Of a DNA stretch of 47,772 nucleotides, positions 2,460 through 40,833 are shown one piece after another. Position numbers and translations under genes: made by a program. Source of the stretch: a virus. Position 1 is the stretch's first letter. Every line of letters begins with the position of its first letter. The stretch is from positions 1 through 47,772 of the IMG/VR virus record IMGVR_UViG_3300032086_002091. The stretch is one strand, 5' to 3'. The notes under the pieces were generated by a model that was not told the DNA's origin, ran no database searches, and saw nothing but the letters and a program-made list of their open reading frames with translations.

Positions 2460-3229
2460 TGGCTAAGATTTTAACGATTGACATAGAGACTGCACCTAAC
2501 CTAGCGTATGTATGGGGTATGTGGAAACAGAACATTGGCTTAGCCCAGTTCAAAGAGCATAGCTACATCATGTCCTTTGCTGCTAAGTGGCTAGGTAGTG
2601 ATGAGGTGTTATACAAAGAGAATCGACATGGGGATGACAAAGCTTTAGTAGAAGACCTTATCTTACTGCTATCCTCAGCTGATATTGTCATTGCACATAA
2701 CGCTAAACGGTTTGACTTACCAATCATCCATGGTCGTGCATTAGTACATGGCATTGCTCCACCAGCTCCGTATAAGATTGTTGATACGCTTATCGAAGCT
2801 AAGAAAGAGTTTAGGTTCTTAAGTAATAAGCTTGAGCACTTAGCTAATGTACTAGGCTGTGCCCCTAAACTTAAGCACGCCCAATACCCCGGCTTTGAGT
2901 TGTGGCTACAATGCCTCAAGCAGAATGATGAAGCTTGGGCTGAGATGAAAGAGTATAACATTCAGGATGTTGTTACACTAGAAGAAGTGTACCTTAAGAT
3001 GCGCCCTTGGATGAAAGGTCACCCTAACATTGGCATCTTTGATGAGCAAGAAGTTCCTGTGTGCCCTAAGTGTGGTAGTAAGCATGTCCATAAGCGTGGC
3101 TATGTGACTACCAACGTATCTAAGTTTAGTAAGTTCCGTTGTGTAGACTGTGGTGGTTGGGGACGTGCTCGTATTAATGAGCTAGATAAAGATAAGCGTA
3201 AACAATTACTAATGAATGTGGCGGGTTAA
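2459..3229 (+). CDS. DEDD-type 3'-5' exonuclease with C-terminal zinc ribbon, 256 aa
   Basis: RNase H-like exonuclease domain: Exo I LTIDIETAPN (about 5-14), Exo II VIAHNAKRFDLPIIHGR (about 77-93), Exo III YNIQDVVTLEEVY (about 165-177), with the tyrosine four residues before the aspartate (DEDDy class). The C-terminus has CPKCGSKHVHKRG and FRCVDCGGWGRA (about 199-228), a four-cysteine zinc ribbon probably for DNA binding. The DNA polymerase at 45903 keeps its own N-terminal DIEADG and HNITRYD exonuclease motifs, so this is a second nuclease, perhaps for repair, recombination or host DNA breakdown. Confidence 0.8.
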   Translation: MAKILTIDIETAPNLAYVWGMWKQNIGLAQFKEHSYIMSFAAKWLGSDEVLYKENRHGDDKALVEDLILLLSSADIVIAHNAKRFDLPIIHGRALVHGIAPPAPYKIVDTLIEAKKEFRFLSNKLEHLANVLGCAPKLKHAQYPGFELWLQCLKQNDEAWAEMKEYNIQDVVTLEEVYLKMRPWMKGHPNIGIFDEQEVPVCPKCGSKHVHKRGYVTTNVSKFSKFRCVDCGGWGRARINELDKDKRKQLLMNVAG

Positions 3230-3870
3230 TGACAAGTAGGATTGATATAATAGGCCAGAATGGTAATGATGGCCTAGTTTACCACTTCAATGATGTACAC
3301 GGACATACCAAAGGAGGGAGATCTCCTACCCACAACTCTTGGTCTTCGATGCGGGATAGGTGCACAAATCCGAACAGTGCTAAATATTCCCGTTATGGTG
3401 GCAGGGGTATTAAGGTTTGTGATAGGTGGTCTAATAGAGTAATTGGCTTTATCAATTTCCTAGGAGATATGGGAGAACGTCCCGCAGGTACTACTATAGA
3501 TAGGATTGATGTTAATGGGGATTACACTCCTGATAACTGTAGGTGGGCCACTCCCGTGGAGCAAGCATCTAATACCACTGCTAACGTATATGTGGTATGT
3601 CCAGATGGTGTATCAAGGGTTTTAGCTGAAGCAACTAGGCTTTCTGAAGTACCTGATGGGACTTTCACTAAGCGTTACTACAGAGGACTTCGGGGTGAAG
3701 ACCTATTTGGCCCAACTTGCCACACTGGAGGTGGTAAGTTGTTAGAGGATGTGTTGGCTAAGATTGAGCAACATGGGTCTTTAAATTATTCTAAAATAGC
3801 TAGAGAGCTAAACATAGATAGGAGGAAAGTTGAAAGAATTTATAAAAAGCACGCAGTTACAAACACCTAA
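3229..3870 (+). CDS. Free-standing HNH homing-endonuclease-like protein with C-terminal HTH, 213 aa
   Basis: Residues about 28-125 show the phage pattern HNSWSSMRDRC, YSRYGGRGIKVCDRW, GERPAGTTIDRIDVNGDYTPDNCRWAT typical of HNH/AP2-like mobile endonucleases. Residues about 185-207 (LNYSKIARELNIDRRKVERIYKK) form a helix-turn-helix. It sits between the exonuclease and nrdB, a usual spot for free-standing homing genes that target RNR loci. Its last 40 bases contain the GGAGG and TTG start of nrdB, so removing it would affect nrdB translation. Confidence 0.75.
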   Translation: MTSRIDIIGQNGNDGLVYHFNDVHGHTKGGRSPTHNSWSSMRDRCTNPNSAKYSRYGGRGIKVCDRWSNRVIGFINFLGDMGERPAGTTIDRIDVNGDYTPDNCRWATPVEQASNTTANVYVVCPDGVSRVLAEATRLSEVPDGTFTKRYYRGLRGEDLFGPTCHTGGGKLLEDVLAKIEQHGSLNYSKIARELNIDRRKVERIYKKHAVTNT

Positions 3871-4825
3871 GAAGAGTTACACCTTCGATTATCCACAGGC
3901 GTTAGCTTATGCTGACGCTCAAATGTCCATCTACTGGACAGCTGATGAGATAAATGTAGAGAAGGACATTCAAGACATACGTGTCAATATGTCTGAGGCT
4001 GAGGCACATGGGGTTATTACAACCCTACGCCTCTTCACATTATATGAGCTGGTGGCTGGTAGGGACTACTGGCTCAACCGTGTAATGAAGAGGTTCCCTC
4101 GTCCAGACATTGAACGTATGGCAAGCACCTTCGGCTTCTTTGAGTTGAATGTACATGCCCCCTTCTACAATAAGATAAATGAAGCTCTTATGTTAAACAC
4201 TGACGAGTTCTACATGTCTTATGTTGATGACCCTATGCTTAAAGAGCGTATGGACTTTGTAGAGGGTGTAGTTACACAAGAGAATGACCTGTTAAGTCTT
4301 GGTGCGTTCTCTATGATTGAAGGGGCTGTATTGTACAGCAGTTTTGCCTTCCTTAAGCACTTCCAAGCTAAGGGTAAGAACAAGCTTATGAACGTAGTGA
4401 GGGGTATTAACTTCTCAGTGCGTGATGAGAACTTACACTGTGAGGGCGGAGCGTGGCTGTATAAGCAGCTAAGGCAAGAACGTATAGAGTCTGGTACATA
4501 CACTCAAGAGTATGACAAACTCCTCTCACAGGAGCTTACAGAGGCTGCTAGGGCTATTGCTGAGCATGAGTTCCGCATAGTTGATATGATCTTTGAGAAA
4601 GGTGAGATGGATGGTATTACACCAGAGCAAATGAAGGTGTTTGTTAAGAGTAGGGTTAACCTATGCTTAGAACGCCTAGGTATTGAGCCAATCTTTGAAG
4701 TGCATAATAACATTGTAGCTGATTGGTTCTATGATAATATTAACGCCCCACAGTTCCATGACTTTTTCACTGGTGTGGGTAGTAGTTACAATCGTAATTG
4801 GGATGAGTCGAGGTTTAAATGGTAG
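3830..4825 (+). CDS. nrdB: Ribonucleoside-diphosphate reductase beta subunit, 331 aa
   Basis: Radical-generating subunit of class I RNR. A TTG start at 3830 follows GGAGGAAAG that lies inside the preceding HNH gene. Candidate metal ligands by position: E73 (YELVAGR), E105 and H109 (FFELNVHAPFY), E164 (SMIEGAVLYSSF), E200 and H203 (VRDENLHCEGG); Y113 is the candidate radical tyrosine, four residues after H109 as in E. coli. The E105-H109 spacing is one residue longer than the usual E-x-x-H. The C-terminus (NWDESRFKW) is the tail expected to bind alpha. The ATG of the ligase gene overlaps its stop, and nrdA follows the ligase. Confidence 0.93.
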   Translation: MKEFIKSTQLQTPKKSYTFDYPQALAYADAQMSIYWTADEINVEKDIQDIRVNMSEAEAHGVITTLRLFTLYELVAGRDYWLNRVMKRFPRPDIERMASTFGFFELNVHAPFYNKINEALMLNTDEFYMSYVDDPMLKERMDFVEGVVTQENDLLSLGAFSMIEGAVLYSSFAFLKHFQAKGKNKLMNVVRGINFSVRDENLHCEGGAWLYKQLRQERIESGTYTQEYDKLLSQELTEAARAIAEHEFRIVDMIFEKGEMDGITPEQMKVFVKSRVNLCLERLGIEPIFEVHNNIVADWFYDNINAPQFHDFFTGVGSSYNRNWDESRFKW

Positions 4826-34070: not shown

Positions 34071-34932
34071 AGTTCAGCAAAAAGCTTGGCAAAATTATTG
34101 TAAGAGCATGTCATTTGGTGTCAATGCTGTATGGGTGACGTTCACTGGGGACGCTATGCACAAGCAATCCTCTACAGCTTGCTTTGCTTCCATTTACAAG
34201 AAAGAGCACAATGGTTGTGACATAGTTGTTAGTCGCATCCAAGCATTTAAAAATCCCATCAAAGATGATAGTCGTTATGATGACATCAAATACTTTTATG
34301 AGTGGCTACTAGGTGAAAGTCCTTTTGCTAAGGTGTTCTTAACTAAGAGTGTTGATGATGTGTTAGAGTCTCGTACGCTAGTGGTTGATGCTAACATGCC
34401 CTCTAACTTAGCCATTGGTGCCCTAAGCTGTGCTCGTACAATTGGGGAGCACGTAAACATCCTTAATACTTTCGTAGACCTATCCAAAGGTGGGTGTAAT
34501 AAGAACCTAGCATATGTCCTAGCAACTGGGGCTGAGAATGCTCAACGTGATAGTGTTGACATATCTTGGAAGTATCAATGGAATGGCCACAAGCCCTTCA
34601 GCCCTGATGATTTTGATGGTAAGTCTCTATCCAATTGGCTTAAGGGTAAGGCTGTTAAGCTAAATGAAAGCCTTAAGAAAGACCCTAACTACCAGTCTAA
34701 TCACTACATCTCTACTTTGTGGGGTGGGGTTAATGGTAGCACTCTTCACAGCCTACTAAGCAAATACAAAGCATCTGATTGGGTGGTTGTATCTGGCAAG
34801 GTTAAGGCTGTAGACCTAAACCCTTTCCGTAAGGATAAGGTTGTGCCAAAGAAAGATGGTATGTCATACGCTGATGGTATTACAGCTATGGTTAATTTCA
34901 GTAAGCAGATTGAGGAGAAGTTCTGTGCCTAG
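34060..34932 (+). CDS. Hypothetical protein upstream of the amidotransferase, 290 aa
   Basis: I prefer ATG 34060 (MLNKVQQKAWQNYCKSMSFG), which overlaps the previous stop and follows GAGG, over the in-frame ATG 34021. No named domain found. An N-terminal beta-rich half (VWVTFTGDAMHKQSSTACFASIYKKEHNGCDIVVSRI) and a Lys-rich C-terminus (GKVKAVDLNPFRKDKVVPKKDGMSYADG). It ends inside the start of the class I amidotransferase, so the two are translationally linked and may work together. Confidence 0.7.
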   Translation: MLNKVQQKAWQNYCKSMSFGVNAVWVTFTGDAMHKQSSTACFASIYKKEHNGCDIVVSRIQAFKNPIKDDSRYDDIKYFYEWLLGESPFAKVFLTKSVDDVLESRTLVVDANMPSNLAIGALSCARTIGEHVNILNTFVDLSKGGCNKNLAYVLATGAENAQRDSVDISWKYQWNGHKPFSPDDFDGKSLSNWLKGKAVKLNESLKKDPNYQSNHYISTLWGGVNGSTLHSLLSKYKASDWVVVSGKVKAVDLNPFRKDKVVPKKDGMSYADGITAMVNFSKQIEEKFCA

Positions 34933-35551
34933 TGTATTGATTGTTGGTGGTAACTACCAGTATGTCCGTATGTTTGAAGACAATGGTTGGGAAGTGGTTG
35001 ATGCTATCAAGGACGCTGACCTAGTTCAGTTCACTGGTGGTGCTGATGTAGACCCAAGCCTATATGGTCACAAGAAACATCCAACCACCATGACTGATTC
35101 AGCATGTGATGCCCGTGATGCCACATACTATGAACAAGCTAAGCGTCTTAACAAGAAGATGGCTGGCATATGTCGTGGTGCCCAGTTCCTCAACGTATGT
35201 AACGGTGGGGTTATGGTTCAAGACTGTAATGGCCATGCTGTAGGCTTAGGCCATAAGCTTGTTGACCGTGAGACAGGGTTTGAGGTGCATGTGTCTAGTA
35301 CGCACCACCAGATGATGGTTCCAGCTGATGATGCTATTGTGGTAGCTCACGCTAATGAGGCCACCATTAAAGAGTGTAATGAAGCTGGCACTATTGTTAA
35401 CATACAAGGTGAGATGGAAGATGACATGGAGGTGTTGTACTATGACTACACTAAGTGTCTGTGTTTCCAACCTCACCCTGAGTTTACACAGTTTCCATCA
35501 TGTACTAAGTATTACTTCCAATGTTTGGAGCGTTGGCTACAACTTAAGTGA
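34925..35551 (+). CDS. Class I glutamine amidotransferase / peptidase C26-like (gamma-glutamyl hydrolase type), 208 aa
   Basis: GTG start at 34925 after TTGAGGAGAAG. The nucleophile is C83 in AGICRGAQFLNV; the histidine is in FQPHPEF near residue 185, two residues before the family's glutamate position (E187). TGGADVDPSLYG (about 37-48) is typical of the PuuD/C26 branch, which hydrolyses gamma-glutamyl amides, rather than of synthase-linked glutaminases. With the downstream amidoligase and ATP-grasp genes it may remove or trim a gamma-glutamyl or related conjugate. Followed 7 bases later by the first tail-tagged small gene. Confidence 0.88.
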   Translation: MPSVLIVGGNYQYVRMFEDNGWEVVDAIKDADLVQFTGGADVDPSLYGHKKHPTTMTDSACDARDATYYEQAKRLNKKMAGICRGAQFLNVCNGGVMVQDCNGHAVGLGHKLVDRETGFEVHVSSTHHQMMVPADDAIVVAHANEATIKECNEAGTIVNIQGEMEDDMEVLYYDYTKCLCFQPHPEFTQFPSCTKYYFQCLERWLQLK

Positions 35552-35557
35552 GGGATT

Positions 35558-35782
35558 ATGTTTGAAGTAGGGGATAGGGTTAGGATTAGGGAAGATTCTT
35601 CTTACTATGGTAGGGATGTTAAGACCAACCCAGCTGATGTTGATGGTGTTGTGATTAGGGTTGATGGCTTTGCGTTATACGTTAAGTGGGACACTGGCTA
35701 TAGGAACACTTACTACAGACATTCCCTAGAGTATGCCAAGACACTAGAAGAACTTATGGAGGAATACTTATGTCAGAGCTAG
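35558..35782 (+). CDS. Tail-tagged small protein 1 (SH3/KOW-like), 74 aa
   Basis: N-terminal FEVGDRVRIREDSSYYGR... and VDGVVIRVDGFALYVKWD form a likely SH3-like barrel. The C-terminus is KTLEELMEEYL followed by CQS. The codons for MEEYL (ATGGAGGAATACTTATG) contain the GGAGG and the ATG of the next gene, which starts 12 bases before this gene's end. Closely related to the protein at 42591 (shared VGDxVRIREDS-x-YYG and VDGVV). Three of its first codons for Arg are AGG. Confidence 0.8.
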   Translation: MFEVGDRVRIREDSSYYGRDVKTNPADVDGVVIRVDGFALYVKWDTGYRNTYYRHSLEYAKTLEELMEEYLCQS

Positions 35783-36041: not shown

Positions 36042-36116
36042 ACGCTGTTAGTTAAATGGAGATAATAATCCCCTCCTAAGGGATAGTTACAGGTTCGAGT
36101 CCTGTACGGCGTACCA
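36042..36116 (+). tRNA. tRNA-Arg (anticodon CCU)
   Basis: Acceptor ACGCTGT (36042-36048) pairs with ACGGCGT (one G-U); D arm GTTA/TAAT; anticodon stem ATCCC/GGGAT with loop CTCCTAA (anticodon CCT); T arm ACAGG-TTCGAGT-CCTGT; discriminator A and encoded CCA. It reads AGG, a codon used often in this genome (three in the first eight codons of the gene at 35558) but usually rare in gammaproteobacterial hosts. A terminator follows directly. Confidence 0.92.
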
Positions 36117-36219: not shown

Positions 36220-37326
36220 ATGTGTGGAATTGTTGGGGCAGCAGGGGCTGTCAGCTTTAACGAGGTGAAGATGGTCAAGATGATGACCATGCTAGACACT
36301 ATCCGTGGGCCACACTCAACAGGTTTCTATGGCTTTGACCCTCAAGGTAACGGGGATATTTTTAAGGCTTTAGGCACACCTTGGGATGCTATGCAGCATA
36401 AGGGCTGGGATAATTTCTTTGCTGGGACATTTAATGTGCTTATTGGGCACAATCGTTGGGCCACTGAAGGGGGTATTAACACTGTCAATGCTCACCCATT
36501 CCGTCATGGCAGCATTGCTGGTGTGCATAATGGTACAATTAAAAACTGGCGTAACAAGCTTAAGGACGCTAAATATTTCAATGTTGATAGTGATTGTCTA
36601 TACCACAACATCAACAACGATGGTGTTGATAAGGCGCTAGATAAGCTTACCTACCAAGATGCTTATGCGTTAGTCTACTTCAATGAAGCTGATAATACGC
36701 TTAACATGGTACGTAATGATGAACGTCCACTATACTATGCTTACAGTAAAGACCGTAAGACGTTGTTCTGGGCTTCAGAAGCTTGGATGATTACGGTGTC
36801 AGCTGGTAAGAGTGGTGTTAAGATTGGGGATGTAACACTACTACCAATTGAAAAGCTTATGACTGTACATATTCCACCAAAGGGCAACTACCAGCGTGAT
36901 ACCATACAAGATGTTACATTACGTGACATTGAATTCACACCTATTGTGACTAAGGTTAAGGAGAAAGTTGTTGCCATTACGCACAACTCTGGTAAGAAGA
37001 AAGTTGTTGACAATGCTGATGACATTGCCAAGGTACGTTCTCACCTAAAGCAATACGTGGAGTTCAGAGTGAACGGTCAGCGCCAAGACGAGACATTGGC
37101 ACTGGATTTCTACGACTGCTACTTGGATTCTGACCCTGATGTCAAGATTCGCTACTACCCACAAGACCAATCATTCAAATCTAAGTTTGCTGAGCGTTGC
37201 CTTAGTGAAGACATACTGCTTAAAGCCATTGTAATAAGCTGTCAGACACGTTTGGGTGAAACCTATGGGGTGGTCAACCCCCTTACAATGACGGAGGTTC
37301 AGGAGCCTCAGCTTGTAAAAAAGTAA
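36220..37326 (+). CDS. Class II (Ntn) glutamine amidotransferase, 368 aa; possible frameshift fusion to a zinc ribbon
   Basis: Cys2 after Met1 (MCGIVGAAG) is the N-terminal nucleophile; HNRWATEG (77-84), NAHPF (90-94) and VHNGTI (102-107) complete the glutaminase site. ALVYFNEADNTLNMVRNDERPLYYA is the typical second half of the Ntn domain. The last 150 residues are not the sugar-isomerase domain of GlmS, so the ammonia acceptor is unknown; the amidoligases downstream are candidates. The final codons GTA-AAA-AAG-TAA form an A_AAA_AAG slippery site with AGGAG 11 bases upstream; a -1 shift would extend the protein to about 432 aa. RBS GAGGAG. Confidence 0.9.
   Translation: MCGIVGAAGAVSFNEVKMVKMMTMLDTIRGPHSTGFYGFDPQGNGDIFKALGTPWDAMQHKGWDNFFAGTFNVLIGHNRWATEGGINTVNAHPFRHGSIAGVHNGTIKNWRNKLKDAKYFNVDSDCLYHNINNDGVDKALDKLTYQDAYALVYFNEADNTLNMVRNDERPLYYAYSKDRKTLFWASEAWMITVSAGKSGVKIGDVTLLPIEKLMTVHIPPKGNYQRDTIQDVTLRDIEFTPIVTKVKEKVVAITHNSGKKKVVDNADDIAKVRSHLKQYVEFRVNGQRQDETLALDFYDCYLDSDPDVKIRYYPQDQSFKSKFAERCLSEDILLKAIVISCQTRLGETYGVVNPLTMTEVQEPQLVKK
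37317..37323 (+). promoter_or_regulatory. Candidate -1 ribosomal frameshift heptamer A_AAA_AAG
   Basis: The zero frame reads GT-A.AAA.AAG.TAA. This is the slippery heptamer of E. coli dnaX. CAGGAG ends at 37305, 11 bases before the heptamer, close to the dnaX internal Shine-Dalgarno spacing. After slipping, translation enters an open -1 frame of 64 codons. I see no strong stem-loop at the usual 5-9 base distance; a weak one (GGA..GAC-TTTT-GTCTCC) lies further on. Confidence 0.6.
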
Positions 37327-37340
37327 CCAACCTAGTAGAA

Positions 37341-37517
37341 GTGTATGGAAAGACTTTTGTCTCCCATTCTGAGTTCAATAAGCTTACAAGTTGTGGTTGT
37401 TCTGTGTGTGGTGAGCTGCCTGTCGTGGATGACGCAGACACACTATTCTGGTGGGATGATCGTAGCTTCTTGTGCAACTTCTGCTATCAAGATTTACAAC
37501 AACAAACAACACATTAA
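37341..37517 (+). CDS. Zinc-ribbon module in the -1 frame of the amidotransferase gene (58 aa from GTG)
   Basis: Reads SEFNKLTSCGCSVCGELPVV, then DDADTLFWWDDRSFLCNFCYQDLQQ: two CxxC knuckles (CSVC and CNFC) 21 residues apart, a clear zinc ribbon. There is no ATG in frame; the only start is GTG 37341, without a good ribosome-binding site. The frame is open back through the slippery heptamer of the upstream gene. It is therefore best read as a C-terminal domain added to the amidotransferase by frameshifting, or as the remains of a once-fused domain. Confidence 0.6.
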   Translation: MYGKTFVSHSEFNKLTSCGCSVCGELPVVDDADTLFWWDDRSFLCNFCYQDLQQQTTH

Positions 37518-37533: not shown

Positions 37534-38325
37534 ATGAAAGACCTAGACTTGAAATTTGGAGCTGACCCAGAAGTATTTGTTAAACTTAAACGACAAAATA
37601 ACTTCGTATCAGCACACGGACTGGTGAGTGGCACAAAAGATCAACCATTTAAAGTTGATAAAGGTGCTGTGCAAGTTGATGGTATGGCCCTAGAGTTTAA
37701 CATCGACCCAGCTGAAAACCAAAAAGAGTTCAGCGAAAATATTAAAACTGTTATGAAGATTCTTGGTGAGATGGTTCCAGACCATGAGCTAGTACCTTCA
37801 CCAACAGCTGACTTTGACCCAACATACCTAGCCTCTCAGCCCTATGAGGCTCTTGAGCTAGGTTGTGACCCAGACTTTAATGCTTATGATGGTGGTAAGC
37901 CTAACCCACGCCCAGATGGTAATGTAAACTTCCGTACTGGTGCTGGTCACATCCACATTGGCTGGTGTGAAGGTGTAGATATTACTAACCCAGATCACCT
38001 TGAAGCTTGCATGACTGTAGTTAAGCAGCTTGATTGGAGCTTAGGCCTACTTGCCACCAAGTATGACACTGATGAGCGTCGTCGTAGTTTGTATGGCAAC
38101 TGGGGGGCCTTCCGTCCTAAGCCTTACGGTGTGGAGTACCGTGTGCTATCTAACGCATGGTTGAAGTCTCCTAAGCTTGTTAAGTGGGTGTATGACACAG
38201 CTTACAAAGCTATTCAAGATTTATACAAAGGTGAGCATCGTTATCTTGACCGTGCCCCTGAAGTTAAATACATCCCTTACCTGACAGATGTTTGGGGTTA
38301 TAAGTTACCACCGGAGGTTAAATGA
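37534..38325 (+). CDS. Phage COOH-NH2 ligase type 2 (amidoligase), 263 aa
   Basis: ATP-dependent ligase of the glutamine-synthetase-like superfamily, joining a carboxylate to an amine. Recognised by the start KFGADPEVFVK (7-17), GAVQVDGMALEFNIDPA (44-60), and GAGHIHIGWCEG (136-147, metal/ATP-binding His and acidic residues), then the Arg-containing VEYRVLSNAWLKSP. Known phage families of this type occur with ATP-grasp and amidotransferase genes, as here. Substrate unknown; cell-wall peptide or protein-tail modification are the usual ideas. Confidence 0.85.
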   Translation: MKDLDLKFGADPEVFVKLKRQNNFVSAHGLVSGTKDQPFKVDKGAVQVDGMALEFNIDPAENQKEFSENIKTVMKILGEMVPDHELVPSPTADFDPTYLASQPYEALELGCDPDFNAYDGGKPNPRPDGNVNFRTGAGHIHIGWCEGVDITNPDHLEACMTVVKQLDWSLGLLATKYDTDERRRSLYGNWGAFRPKPYGVEYRVLSNAWLKSPKLVKWVYDTAYKAIQDLYKGEHRYLDRAPEVKYIPYLTDVWGYKLPPEVK

Positions 38326-38888
38326 TGTACGGGAAAGACTACGCATATGCAGCAAGCCGTTTAGTTGAGACTATTGTGCGCTACAAAGGTAAGCCTGTAC
38401 TTGTGTGTGCCTTGTCAGCTGCGGATGGTATGGCAACTGTTAAGACATTTGATGACCTCACTTACATTGAGGCTCACCTTGATACATTAGATGTATCAAC
38501 ACCACCTCTTGGTATGGTTAAGCTTGGTGATCAATGTGTCTACCTATCCCGTGTCCCTATGCGTCGTGACTGGCGACAAGGACTACGCCGTAATAATTGT
38601 ATGGCCATCTGGGGTAGTGGTGGCTTCACAGGGCATGTTGATAATCGTCACATTGCCCGTGCCATTGTAGTAAATCACTTGTCACTACAAGAAGTTATGG
38701 TACGCTGTAAGGAGACTGGTGGAACTCGGCCTTTTCACAGGCACTGGGCCATCTCGTATGATGGGGGTGACTTCAATTTGTATTACAAGTGGTTCGGCTG
38801 TGTAGGTGCCATCACAGAAGGTGGTGTGGTTAAGTTTGACGAGCGTTACGAACTATTAGCAGAGAGTTTGGAAGAGGTGTTAGCATGA
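38322..38888 (+). CDS. Hypothetical amidoligase-cluster protein, 188 aa
   Basis: ATG overlaps the previous stop, and its stop overlaps the next ATG, so it is locked into the ligase operon. Sequence: beta-rich start (YKGKPVLVCALSAADGMATVKTFDDLTYIEAHLDTLDVSTPPLGMVKLGDQCVYLSRVPMRRDWRQGL) and a His/Arg-rich centre (GSGGFTGHVDNRHIARAIV). It is likely a partner of the two ligases, perhaps for substrate presentation. No domain recognised. Confidence 0.7.
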   Translation: MMYGKDYAYAASRLVETIVRYKGKPVLVCALSAADGMATVKTFDDLTYIEAHLDTLDVSTPPLGMVKLGDQCVYLSRVPMRRDWRQGLRRNNCMAIWGSGGFTGHVDNRHIARAIVVNHLSLQEVMVRCKETGGTRPFHRHWAISYDGGDFNLYYKWFGCVGAITEGGVVKFDERYELLAESLEEVLA

Positions 38889-39799
38889 AAACAGTTGCTC
38901 AGATGTTCAATGTCAAGCAAGTTGAAGGGGACTTCGGCCTTGAGGTTGAGTTAGAGGGTAGTCTAGGTAATCGTAACGCCGTGGACAGGTTCCGCTATGA
39001 GCATGATGGTTCCCTTGAGAATGGTATTGAGTTAGTGTTACGTGAGCCAACACCAATTGAGGAGCTTAAGTTGGTGATGTCTGACTTAGATAAGGTTATT
39101 AAATCTTGTACCATCAGACCTTCAATCCGTTGTGGTGTACACATCCACATTAACGCAACCCATATGAATGCACTTCAGTTGGTAAACTTCTTAACCATCT
39201 ATTACACATTGGAAAACATTCTGTTAGATCATTGTGGGAAAGGCCGTCAATCTAACCTGTTCTGCTTACGTGGAGCTGATGCTGAGTACCAAATTAAGTG
39301 TGCAGGCCGTGCTCTATCTGGTGAGGTTAACGCATTAGATGACACAATCCGTTACACTGCCCTTAACTTATTGGCGTTACGTAACTACGGCAGCTTAGAG
39401 TTCCGTGCATTACGTACCCCAACCAAATCTAAGATGAAAGAAATTTCTAAATGGGTTGAGGTGTTGTTACACATTCGTGAGTGTGCTATGGCTGAGGAAA
39501 GTCCAGCCAAGATACTGTCAACATTCTCTGGCTTTGAAGCTAAAGAGTTTGTGCTTAAGTACCTACCACAGCTAGCTCAGGATGTATTCAACACTGATGG
39601 TTGGGTTGATAAGCTTAAGTCTGGTATGCGTATTGCTCAAGACCTAGTTATCTCAGGTGATTGGGATGAGTTAGGTAAGGAGGATGAGATTGTTCGTAAC
39701 CTTCCTGACCAGCTTAAGCAGCTAATTGCAGATCATCCACATATTGACCCACGTGAAGTGGAAATCTTATGGAGGGCGCGTAATGGGCACCACATCTAA
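38885..39799 (+). CDS. Amidoligase (amidoligase_2-like), 304 aa
   Basis: Second glutamine-synthetase-fold ligase. The start has GDFGLEVELEG (15-25) with the paired metal-binding glutamates, then YEHDGSLENGIELVLREP (38-56), CGVHIHINATHM (about 80-91) and NYGSLEFRALRTPT (about 172-184) with the catalytic Arg. It differs from the gene at 37534, so the cluster probably makes two successive amide bonds. A GGAGGG inside its last codons serves the tail-tagged gene 3. Confidence 0.85.
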   Translation: MKTVAQMFNVKQVEGDFGLEVELEGSLGNRNAVDRFRYEHDGSLENGIELVLREPTPIEELKLVMSDLDKVIKSCTIRPSIRCGVHIHINATHMNALQLVNFLTIYYTLENILLDHCGKGRQSNLFCLRGADAEYQIKCAGRALSGEVNALDDTIRYTALNLLALRNYGSLEFRALRTPTKSKMKEISKWVEVLLHIRECAMAEESPAKILSTFSGFEAKEFVLKYLPQLAQDVFNTDGWVDKLKSGMRIAQDLVISGDWDELGKEDEIVRNLPDQLKQLIADHPHIDPREVEILWRARNGHHI

Positions 39800-40056: not shown

Positions 40057-40833
40057 ATGTTATTACGTAGTTATAAGTTTGGTAGTAAGAGTGGTAAGGC
40101 ATTAGCTGAAGCCTTAGGTGCTAAGCGTATTAAGCACAAAGGGAGTAAGTTTATTGGACGACCACATAAGACAGTTATTAATTGGGGTTGTAGTGTATTG
40201 CCAGAAGAGGTGTTGAAGTGTAAGGTTGTGAATGACCCTGACTTCGTTGGCTTAGCTGCCAACAAGAAAGACTTCTTCTTACGCCTTGATGATTACAACA
40301 TGACAGCTGAAGAGGGTCGTAAGATTTACCATCCAGACTTCACCAGTGATAAGGCTGTAGCTGAACAGTGGTTAGCTGATGGAGCTACGGTTGTTGAGCG
40401 TCATAAGCTTACTGGTAACAGTGGTGAGGGTATTGTAATTTGTGAGCCTGATGGTGAGCTAGGTAATGCTAAGCTGTACACCAAGTATGTCCCTAAGAAG
40501 AATGAATATCGTGTACATGTTGTTAATGGCCAGCCTATTGACATTCAGCGTAAGGCTCGTGTTAAAGACTTACCAGATGATCAGATCAACTGGAAGGTAC
40601 GCAACATGGATGGTGGATTCATCTTTGCTCGTAACGAAGATCACCAAGTTCCACCTGTAGTTGCACACCAAGGTGTGTTAGCTGTTGAGGCATTACGCCT
40701 AGACTTTGGTGCTGTAGATGTCATCTACAATGATAAGAAAGGTGTGGCGTATGTGTTAGAAGTTAATACAGCACCGGGACTAATGGGTACAACTCTTGAG
40801 AAATATGTGGAGGCTTTCAATGAGCTTGGTTGA
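40057..40833 (+). CDS. ATP-grasp ligase (RimK-like), 258 aa
   Basis: Carboxylate-amine ligase acting via acyl phosphate. Central and C-terminal ATP-grasp elements: VVERHKLTGNSGEGIVIC (about 112-129), KLYTKYVPKKNEYRVHVVNGQPIDIQRK (about 140-167) and VDVIYNDKKGVAYVLEVNTAPGLMGTT (about 222-248) with the Mg-binding Glu-x-Asn. RimK relatives add amino acids to proteins or peptides, so a tail-modification role is possible. Its end overlaps the start of tail-tagged gene 4. Confidence 0.9.
   Translation: MLLRSYKFGSKSGKALAEALGAKRIKHKGSKFIGRPHKTVINWGCSVLPEEVLKCKVVNDPDFVGLAANKKDFFLRLDDYNMTAEEGRKIYHPDFTSDKAVAEQWLADGATVVERHKLTGNSGEGIVICEPDGELGNAKLYTKYVPKKNEYRVHVVNGQPIDIQRKARVKDLPDDQINWKVRNMDGGFIFARNEDHQVPPVVAHQGVLAVEALRLDFGAVDVIYNDKKGVAYVLEVNTAPGLMGTTLEKYVEAFNELG

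Follow-up and report, generated by a model that had tools for sequence, protein, structure and literature searches.

Programmed -1 ribosomal frameshifting at the heptamer A_AAA_AAG is well known. In Escherichia coli dnaX, this heptamer is combined with an SD-like stimulator ~10 nt upstream and a downstream hairpin, and the shift yields the truncated member of a pair of enzyme subunit forms (tau and gamma). A second arrangement is found in IS3-family elements and in phage tail chaperones of the lambda G/GT type, where a 0-frame stop is bypassed through an X_XXY_YYZ heptamer to give a longer fusion; IS911 combines an SD motif with a hairpin. Most demonstrated phage frameshifts serve virion proteins. 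Equally well known is the family of class II glutamine amidotransferases represented by PHROG 18128 and 4736 (Pseudomonas phages PA11, GP100, PaP3 and tf), whose members carry a four-Cys C-terminal domain fused in frame and are encoded in an operon with a COOH-NH2 ligase, an amidoligase and an ATP-grasp ligase. Frameshifting goes unmentioned in the records and literature examined for these phages, and no report of a frameshift in this gene was found in the literature searched, mainly papers open without subscription.

The locus described here lies in the window, by which is meant the whole 47,772-base stretch of viral DNA that was analysed (IMG/VR record IMGVR_UViG_3300032086_002091, a single metagenome record). 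Among annotated phages, those closest to it are of Zobellviridae type, for example PA11, GP100 and phages associated with oysters. The window encodes the same enzyme in the same operon as the PHROG 18128 and 4736 phages, but here the four-Cys C-terminal domain would join the amidotransferase polypeptide only via the -1 frame. The features of the gene are as follows:

36220..37326, + strand: class II glutamine amidotransferase, 0-frame short form of 368 aa (ORF, Pfam, PHROG)
37301..37305, + strand: SD-like AGGAG, 11 nt upstream of the heptamer (sequence)
37317..37323, + strand: slippery heptamer A_AAA_AAG in X_XXY_YYZ phase (sequence)
37324..37326, + strand: 0-frame stop TAA, immediately 3′ of the heptamer (sequence)
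37323..37517, + strand: -1 frame extension of 64 codons plus stop TAA at 37515-37517 (match to the C-terminus of phrog_18128)
37398..37484, + strand: predicted four-Cys zinc-binding domain, CSVC-21-CNFC (conservation, structure model)

The 0-frame protein begins MCG, with the expected Cys2 nucleophile, and matches both Pfam GATase_6 (E 1e-15, 58 bits against a cut-off of 27) and positions 1-265 of the phrog_18128 profile (E 3e-75). Its gene ends in the codons CAG GAG CCT CAG CTT GTA AAA AAG TAA, and the heptamer that these contain is the single in-phase copy of A_AAA_AAG among the 12,816 codons of the window's 40 ORFs with lengths of 120 aa or more, a rarity that exceeds what chance would explain. 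A second SD-like sequence, GGAGG, is present at 37293-37297. The last upstream -1 stop, at 37257-37259, leaves an overlap of 67 nt between the two frames. An earlier note on this DNA, made from its letters alone, had pointed to the in-register heptamer before TAA, to AGGAG 11 bases upstream, to an open -1 frame of 64 codons with two CxxC motifs 21 residues apart and to the lack of a good start for that frame, and each of these was located as described: the sole ATG, GTG or TTG ahead of the first Cys is a GTG at 37341, with no SD before it.

The -1 translation matches positions 373-425 of the 437 in phrog_18128 (E 5e-6). Because PHROG 18128 thus matches both the 0-frame protein and the -1 translation, the -1 frame encodes the genuine C-terminus of the amidotransferase family. 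The four Cys and the Gly preceding the first of them are invariant in an alignment of 19 homologues, and the window's -1 peptide is modeled confidently on its own (pLDDT 92). The model of a fused homologue comprises a glutaminase (of GlmS/PurF type in L012), a second domain and the four-Cys domain, with short linkers of low confidence between them. Where the earlier note spoke of a zinc ribbon, the two CxxC knuckles are borne out by this conservation. The best match to the domain model in the PDB, a LIM/RING-like structure, is not significant (E 0.5), and the term is acceptable as a descriptive name rather than as an assignment of fold class.

Very probably, programmed -1 ribosomal frameshifting lets the window's amidotransferase gene encode two proteins. 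The majority of ribosomes would terminate at the TAA at 37324 to release the 368-aa amidotransferase, consisting of the catalytic and second domains. Some would pause as AGGAG pairs with 16S rRNA, with AAA in the P site and AAG in the A site; the two Lys-tRNAs would then shift back one base onto AAA-AAA, and 64 further codons would be translated to give a 432-aa form bearing the C-terminal zinc-binding domain. The two forms are of the sizes proposed in the earlier note (368 and about 432 aa), whose reading of the site is supported by the homologues described below. Three things can be read directly from the sequences: the shift signal, a -1 product homologous to the fused family, and a layout that recurs, with efficient heptamers, in seven genes. 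Slippage in the host, the frequency at which it occurs and a function for each of the two forms are inferred. In its heptamer, its SD-like stimulator and its two enzyme forms the gene is similar to dnaX, but the dnaX shift truncates, whereas that of the window would extend the protein by a domain. No strong hairpin, as counterpart to that of dnaX, was seen at the usual 5-8 nt 3′ of the window heptamer (z -0.3). In passing a 0-frame stop, the gene is more reminiscent of the IS3 and lambda G/GT arrangements, but those serve transposases and tail proteins, whereas the product here is a metabolic enzyme and the added part is a predicted zinc-binding domain.

Homologues were gathered from IMG/VR and from annotated phages, and the frame of the four-Cys domain in each was classified with profile models. 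Among 187 distinct homologues, an in-frame fusion was seen in 148 (including the isolates PA11 and GP100); the domain lies in the -1 frame in seven and in the +1 frame in three, and was undetected in 29. Because in-frame fusion is found in 148 of the 187, the split layout of the window is the exception. No relative with a separately started zinc domain gene, the arrangement that the earlier note had named as counting against frameshifting if found in homologues lacking the heptamer, turned up among the collected homologues. Single-protein and two-sequence scans found no full-length relative of the window closer than 43% identity, the nearest being L010; the exact DNA pattern of the window junction was unmatched in IMG/VR, and a scan of genome contigs returned just two distant GATases.

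The seven genes with the -1 layout are those of the window, L010, L034, L062, L080, L098 and L408, the last being from the isolated Pseudoalteromonas phage Slicky01 (OQ508958). All seven possess an efficient heptamer, in phase, within the overlap, the 10-82 nt that separate the final -1 stop from the stop of the 0 frame; six have A_AAA_AAG and one (L034) has C_CCT_TTC. Efficient heptamers are here those measured as most efficient in E. coli (PMC4066793, also the source for the stimulators), and slip efficiencies may differ in the host of the window phage. The 0-frame stop lies directly 3′ of the heptamer in the window and L098 (AAA AAG TAA) and in L408 (AAA AAG TAG). Because the overlaps in L098 and L408 are only 13 and 10 nt, respectively, a shift site elsewhere is hardly possible in these two genes. 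In L010, at 43% identity, the -1 frame is retained and an A_AAA_AAG stands at the position aligned with that of the window, the conservation that the earlier note had proposed to check. In a tree made prior to the acceptance of L408 as a -1 case, the window and L010 form a sister pair (SH-aLRT 98), L080 and L098 lie near L062, and L034 is in a separate clade; these placements give at least three origins of the -1 layout.

Downstream structure is a further feature of this group. Stem-loops 3′ of the heptamer are predicted in L080 (z -4.9), L062 (z -4.5), L098 (z -2.7) and L010 (z -2.3), which thus have a counterpart to the dnaX hairpin, and the combined signal for six genes has p 1.6e-5; L408 also has one (z -2.4). 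The hairpins of L080, L062, L098 and L010 start ~5-9 nt past the heptamer. A significant downstream hairpin is absent from the window and L034 and present in the other five of the seven.

In Slicky01, the -1 zinc domain (3207-3347), with the predicted junction KK-VDTVTCYVC, is without annotation in the public record. Two relatives of Slicky01 (59-68% identity), L386 (~4017-4181) and L389 (~3960-4112), use the +1 (or -2) frame for this domain. In both it follows a conserved CAA AAG AAG and lacks a start codon ahead of the first Cys, and both also have an in-phase A_AAA_AAA near residue 263.

It could be that the split gene arose from the loss of one A from an in-frame A7, whether through a mistake in assembly or sequencing or through a genuine mutation that removed the tail, with plain fusion as the true or ancestral state and the heptamer as a by-product. 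An A7 at the window run would restore the frame exactly, plain fusion is the rule in most relatives, A7G occurs in the linker of seven of the 148 fused genes, and homopolymer indel noise exists in the collection, as exemplified by L144 and L149 (3001-4400), near-identical metagenome contigs with one-base homopolymer indels in the amidotransferase. This explanation is nevertheless unlikely. The same -1 sense together with an efficient heptamer is seen in seven genes of at least three lineages, one of them an isolate; L034 has no long homopolymer; the window and its sister L010 have the site in common; the heptamers are accompanied by stem-loops and SD motifs; and the clear case of noise, L144, is a +1 rather than a -1 change. 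In simulations on fused relatives, a random one-base deletion in the linker gave an overlap with an efficient heptamer in 10.6% of cases, and a deletion placed in a homopolymer did so in 14-19%. With the seven genes assumed to be independent, the probability that all seven would have one is 1.5e-7 for any deletion and 1e-6 to 9e-6 for homopolymer deletions; with only three or four independent events this probability becomes weaker, and the conservation of sites inside pairs adds separate support. One-base error as the main reading is rejected by these simulations.

Coupled genes are common among phages, and an in-frame GTG lies 14 nt past the amidotransferase stop of the window, such that the zinc domain might be made as a separate small protein by re-initiation at 37341. 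This is quite improbable, given that the GTG lacks a preceding SD, that in L010, L080 and L408 the first Cys is preceded by no ATG, GTG or TTG at all, and that 148 relatives carry the domain as part of the enzyme, with no free-standing version found among the homologues. As to transcriptional rather than ribosomal slippage creating the second frame, an A-rich run of the general kind that some genes use in this way (PMC3711429) is present, but the window run has just six A, against the n > 7 given for such runs (PMC3711429), L034 has C_CCT_TTC, and ribosomes are what both the SD-like motifs, spaced at 10-11 nt, and the hairpins 3′ of the heptamers act on, all of which makes this reading barely credible.

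Programmed -1 ribosomal frameshifting, as preferred here for the window, may also extend to the fused relatives, the linkers of which are enriched in shift sites; neither this nor the exceptional nature of the window layout was foreseen in the earlier note. In the linker that follows the catalytic domain of fused genes, in-phase A_AAA_AAG occurs at 3.0 per 1000 codons; the corresponding values are 0.12 for the catalytic domain and 0.05 for the remaining genes of these loci. Lys-Lys pairs take the slippery form in 25% of cases in the linker versus 1.2% in other genes (p 8e-30), and within the linker an A precedes AAA-AAG in 45 of 59 instances, compared with 24 of 121 when the Lys-Lys pair is coded otherwise (p 5e-13). 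Pro-Phe pairs behave similarly, with C_CCT_TTY in 50/105 versus 30/467 (p 3e-22). Across residues 215-305 of 122 representatives, the 15 efficient heptamers of the literature set, which was picked after the first enrichment had been noticed and so serves as a check rather than a blind test, occur 115 times in phase versus 30 and 18 times in the other phases, whereas 49 weak heptamers are found 51, 58 and 19 times across the three phases; this phase control is independent of the choice of heptamer set. At least one efficient in-phase heptamer is present in 89 of the 122, versus 7.3 expected. A Lys-rich linker as the source of this clustering is ruled out by the Lys-Lys and Pro-Phe codon-pair controls and the phase control. 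In homologues, SD-like 4-mers peak 10-11 nt ahead of A_AAA_AAG (17-19% versus 2-3%).

A shift at the linker heptamers of fused genes would lead to a stop after a median of 20 codons. Isolates with such sites include GP100 (A_AAA_AAG near residue 276), IME271 and Phriendly, whose truncated forms would be about 270-300 aa long. Hairpins at these heptamers are not enriched, and the -1 tails are mostly not conserved, with identity in the 0 frame usually equal or higher. Because of these two results, what can be concluded for the fused genes is limited to selection for slippage, which is a well-supported inference from the codon and phase patterns, and does not extend to a functional tail. The mid-gene -1 tails of L075, L360 and L367 share the residues AWERM, and EYLIR ends two of the three; a minority of truncated forms may thus have a meaningful tail.

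Viewed across the family, -1 frameshifting looks to support two-form expression that is truncating in most phages and extending in the window. We consider it likely that the whole family makes two forms in this manner and that the direction has switched in evolution, with most members truncating after the catalytic domain, in the layout of dnaX, and at least three lineages, including that of the window, and probably a further one, that of Slicky01, extending. The enzyme would be required with and without its C-terminal part at a set ratio, and frameshifting would supply both: most phages would encode the long form and shift to make the short, and those of the window type would encode the short form and shift to make the long. 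The short forms would differ, in that the window's retains the second domain and the truncated products of fused genes would lose it. If so, the family can be studied as a natural series of genes whose recoding site has moved and reversed direction.

The genes surrounding the amidotransferase include the following:

34841..35551, + strand: class I glutamine amidotransferase / peptidase C26 (Pfam PF07722, E 6e-16)
37534..38325, + strand: phiEco32-like COOH-NH2 ligase type 2, the next gene (Pfam PF14395, E 2e-10)
38885..39799, + strand: amidoligase (Pfam Amidoligase_2, E 5e-7; phrog_7469)
40057..40833, + strand: R2K-like ATP-grasp ligase (phrog_2599, E 1e-82; Pfam R2K_3 below cut-off)

Conceivably, and as a guess from this operon context, the zinc domain could dock the ammonia-producing domain onto the neighboring ligases, or handle substrate; in the docking case, the frameshift would determine how much of the enzyme is docked and how much is free. 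The amidotransferase, an operonic enzyme in a peptide-ligase pathway that is uncharacterised but present in many phages, appears to require two forms at a set ratio, and this requirement provides a handle on the function of the pathway. Slicky01, in which annotation missed the zinc domain, is already at hand for experimental work.

Shortly upstream of the amidotransferase, at 36042-36116, is a tRNA-Arg (CCT) gene that resembles phage tRNA-Arg genes, including that of Slicky01 (86% identity). In addition, at least seven small predicted proteins of the window (at 35738, 35962, 40014, 41015, 41857, 42559 and 42771, + strand) share a near-identical C-terminal [KY][TS]LEELMEEYL, which has the appearance of a tag-like repeat.
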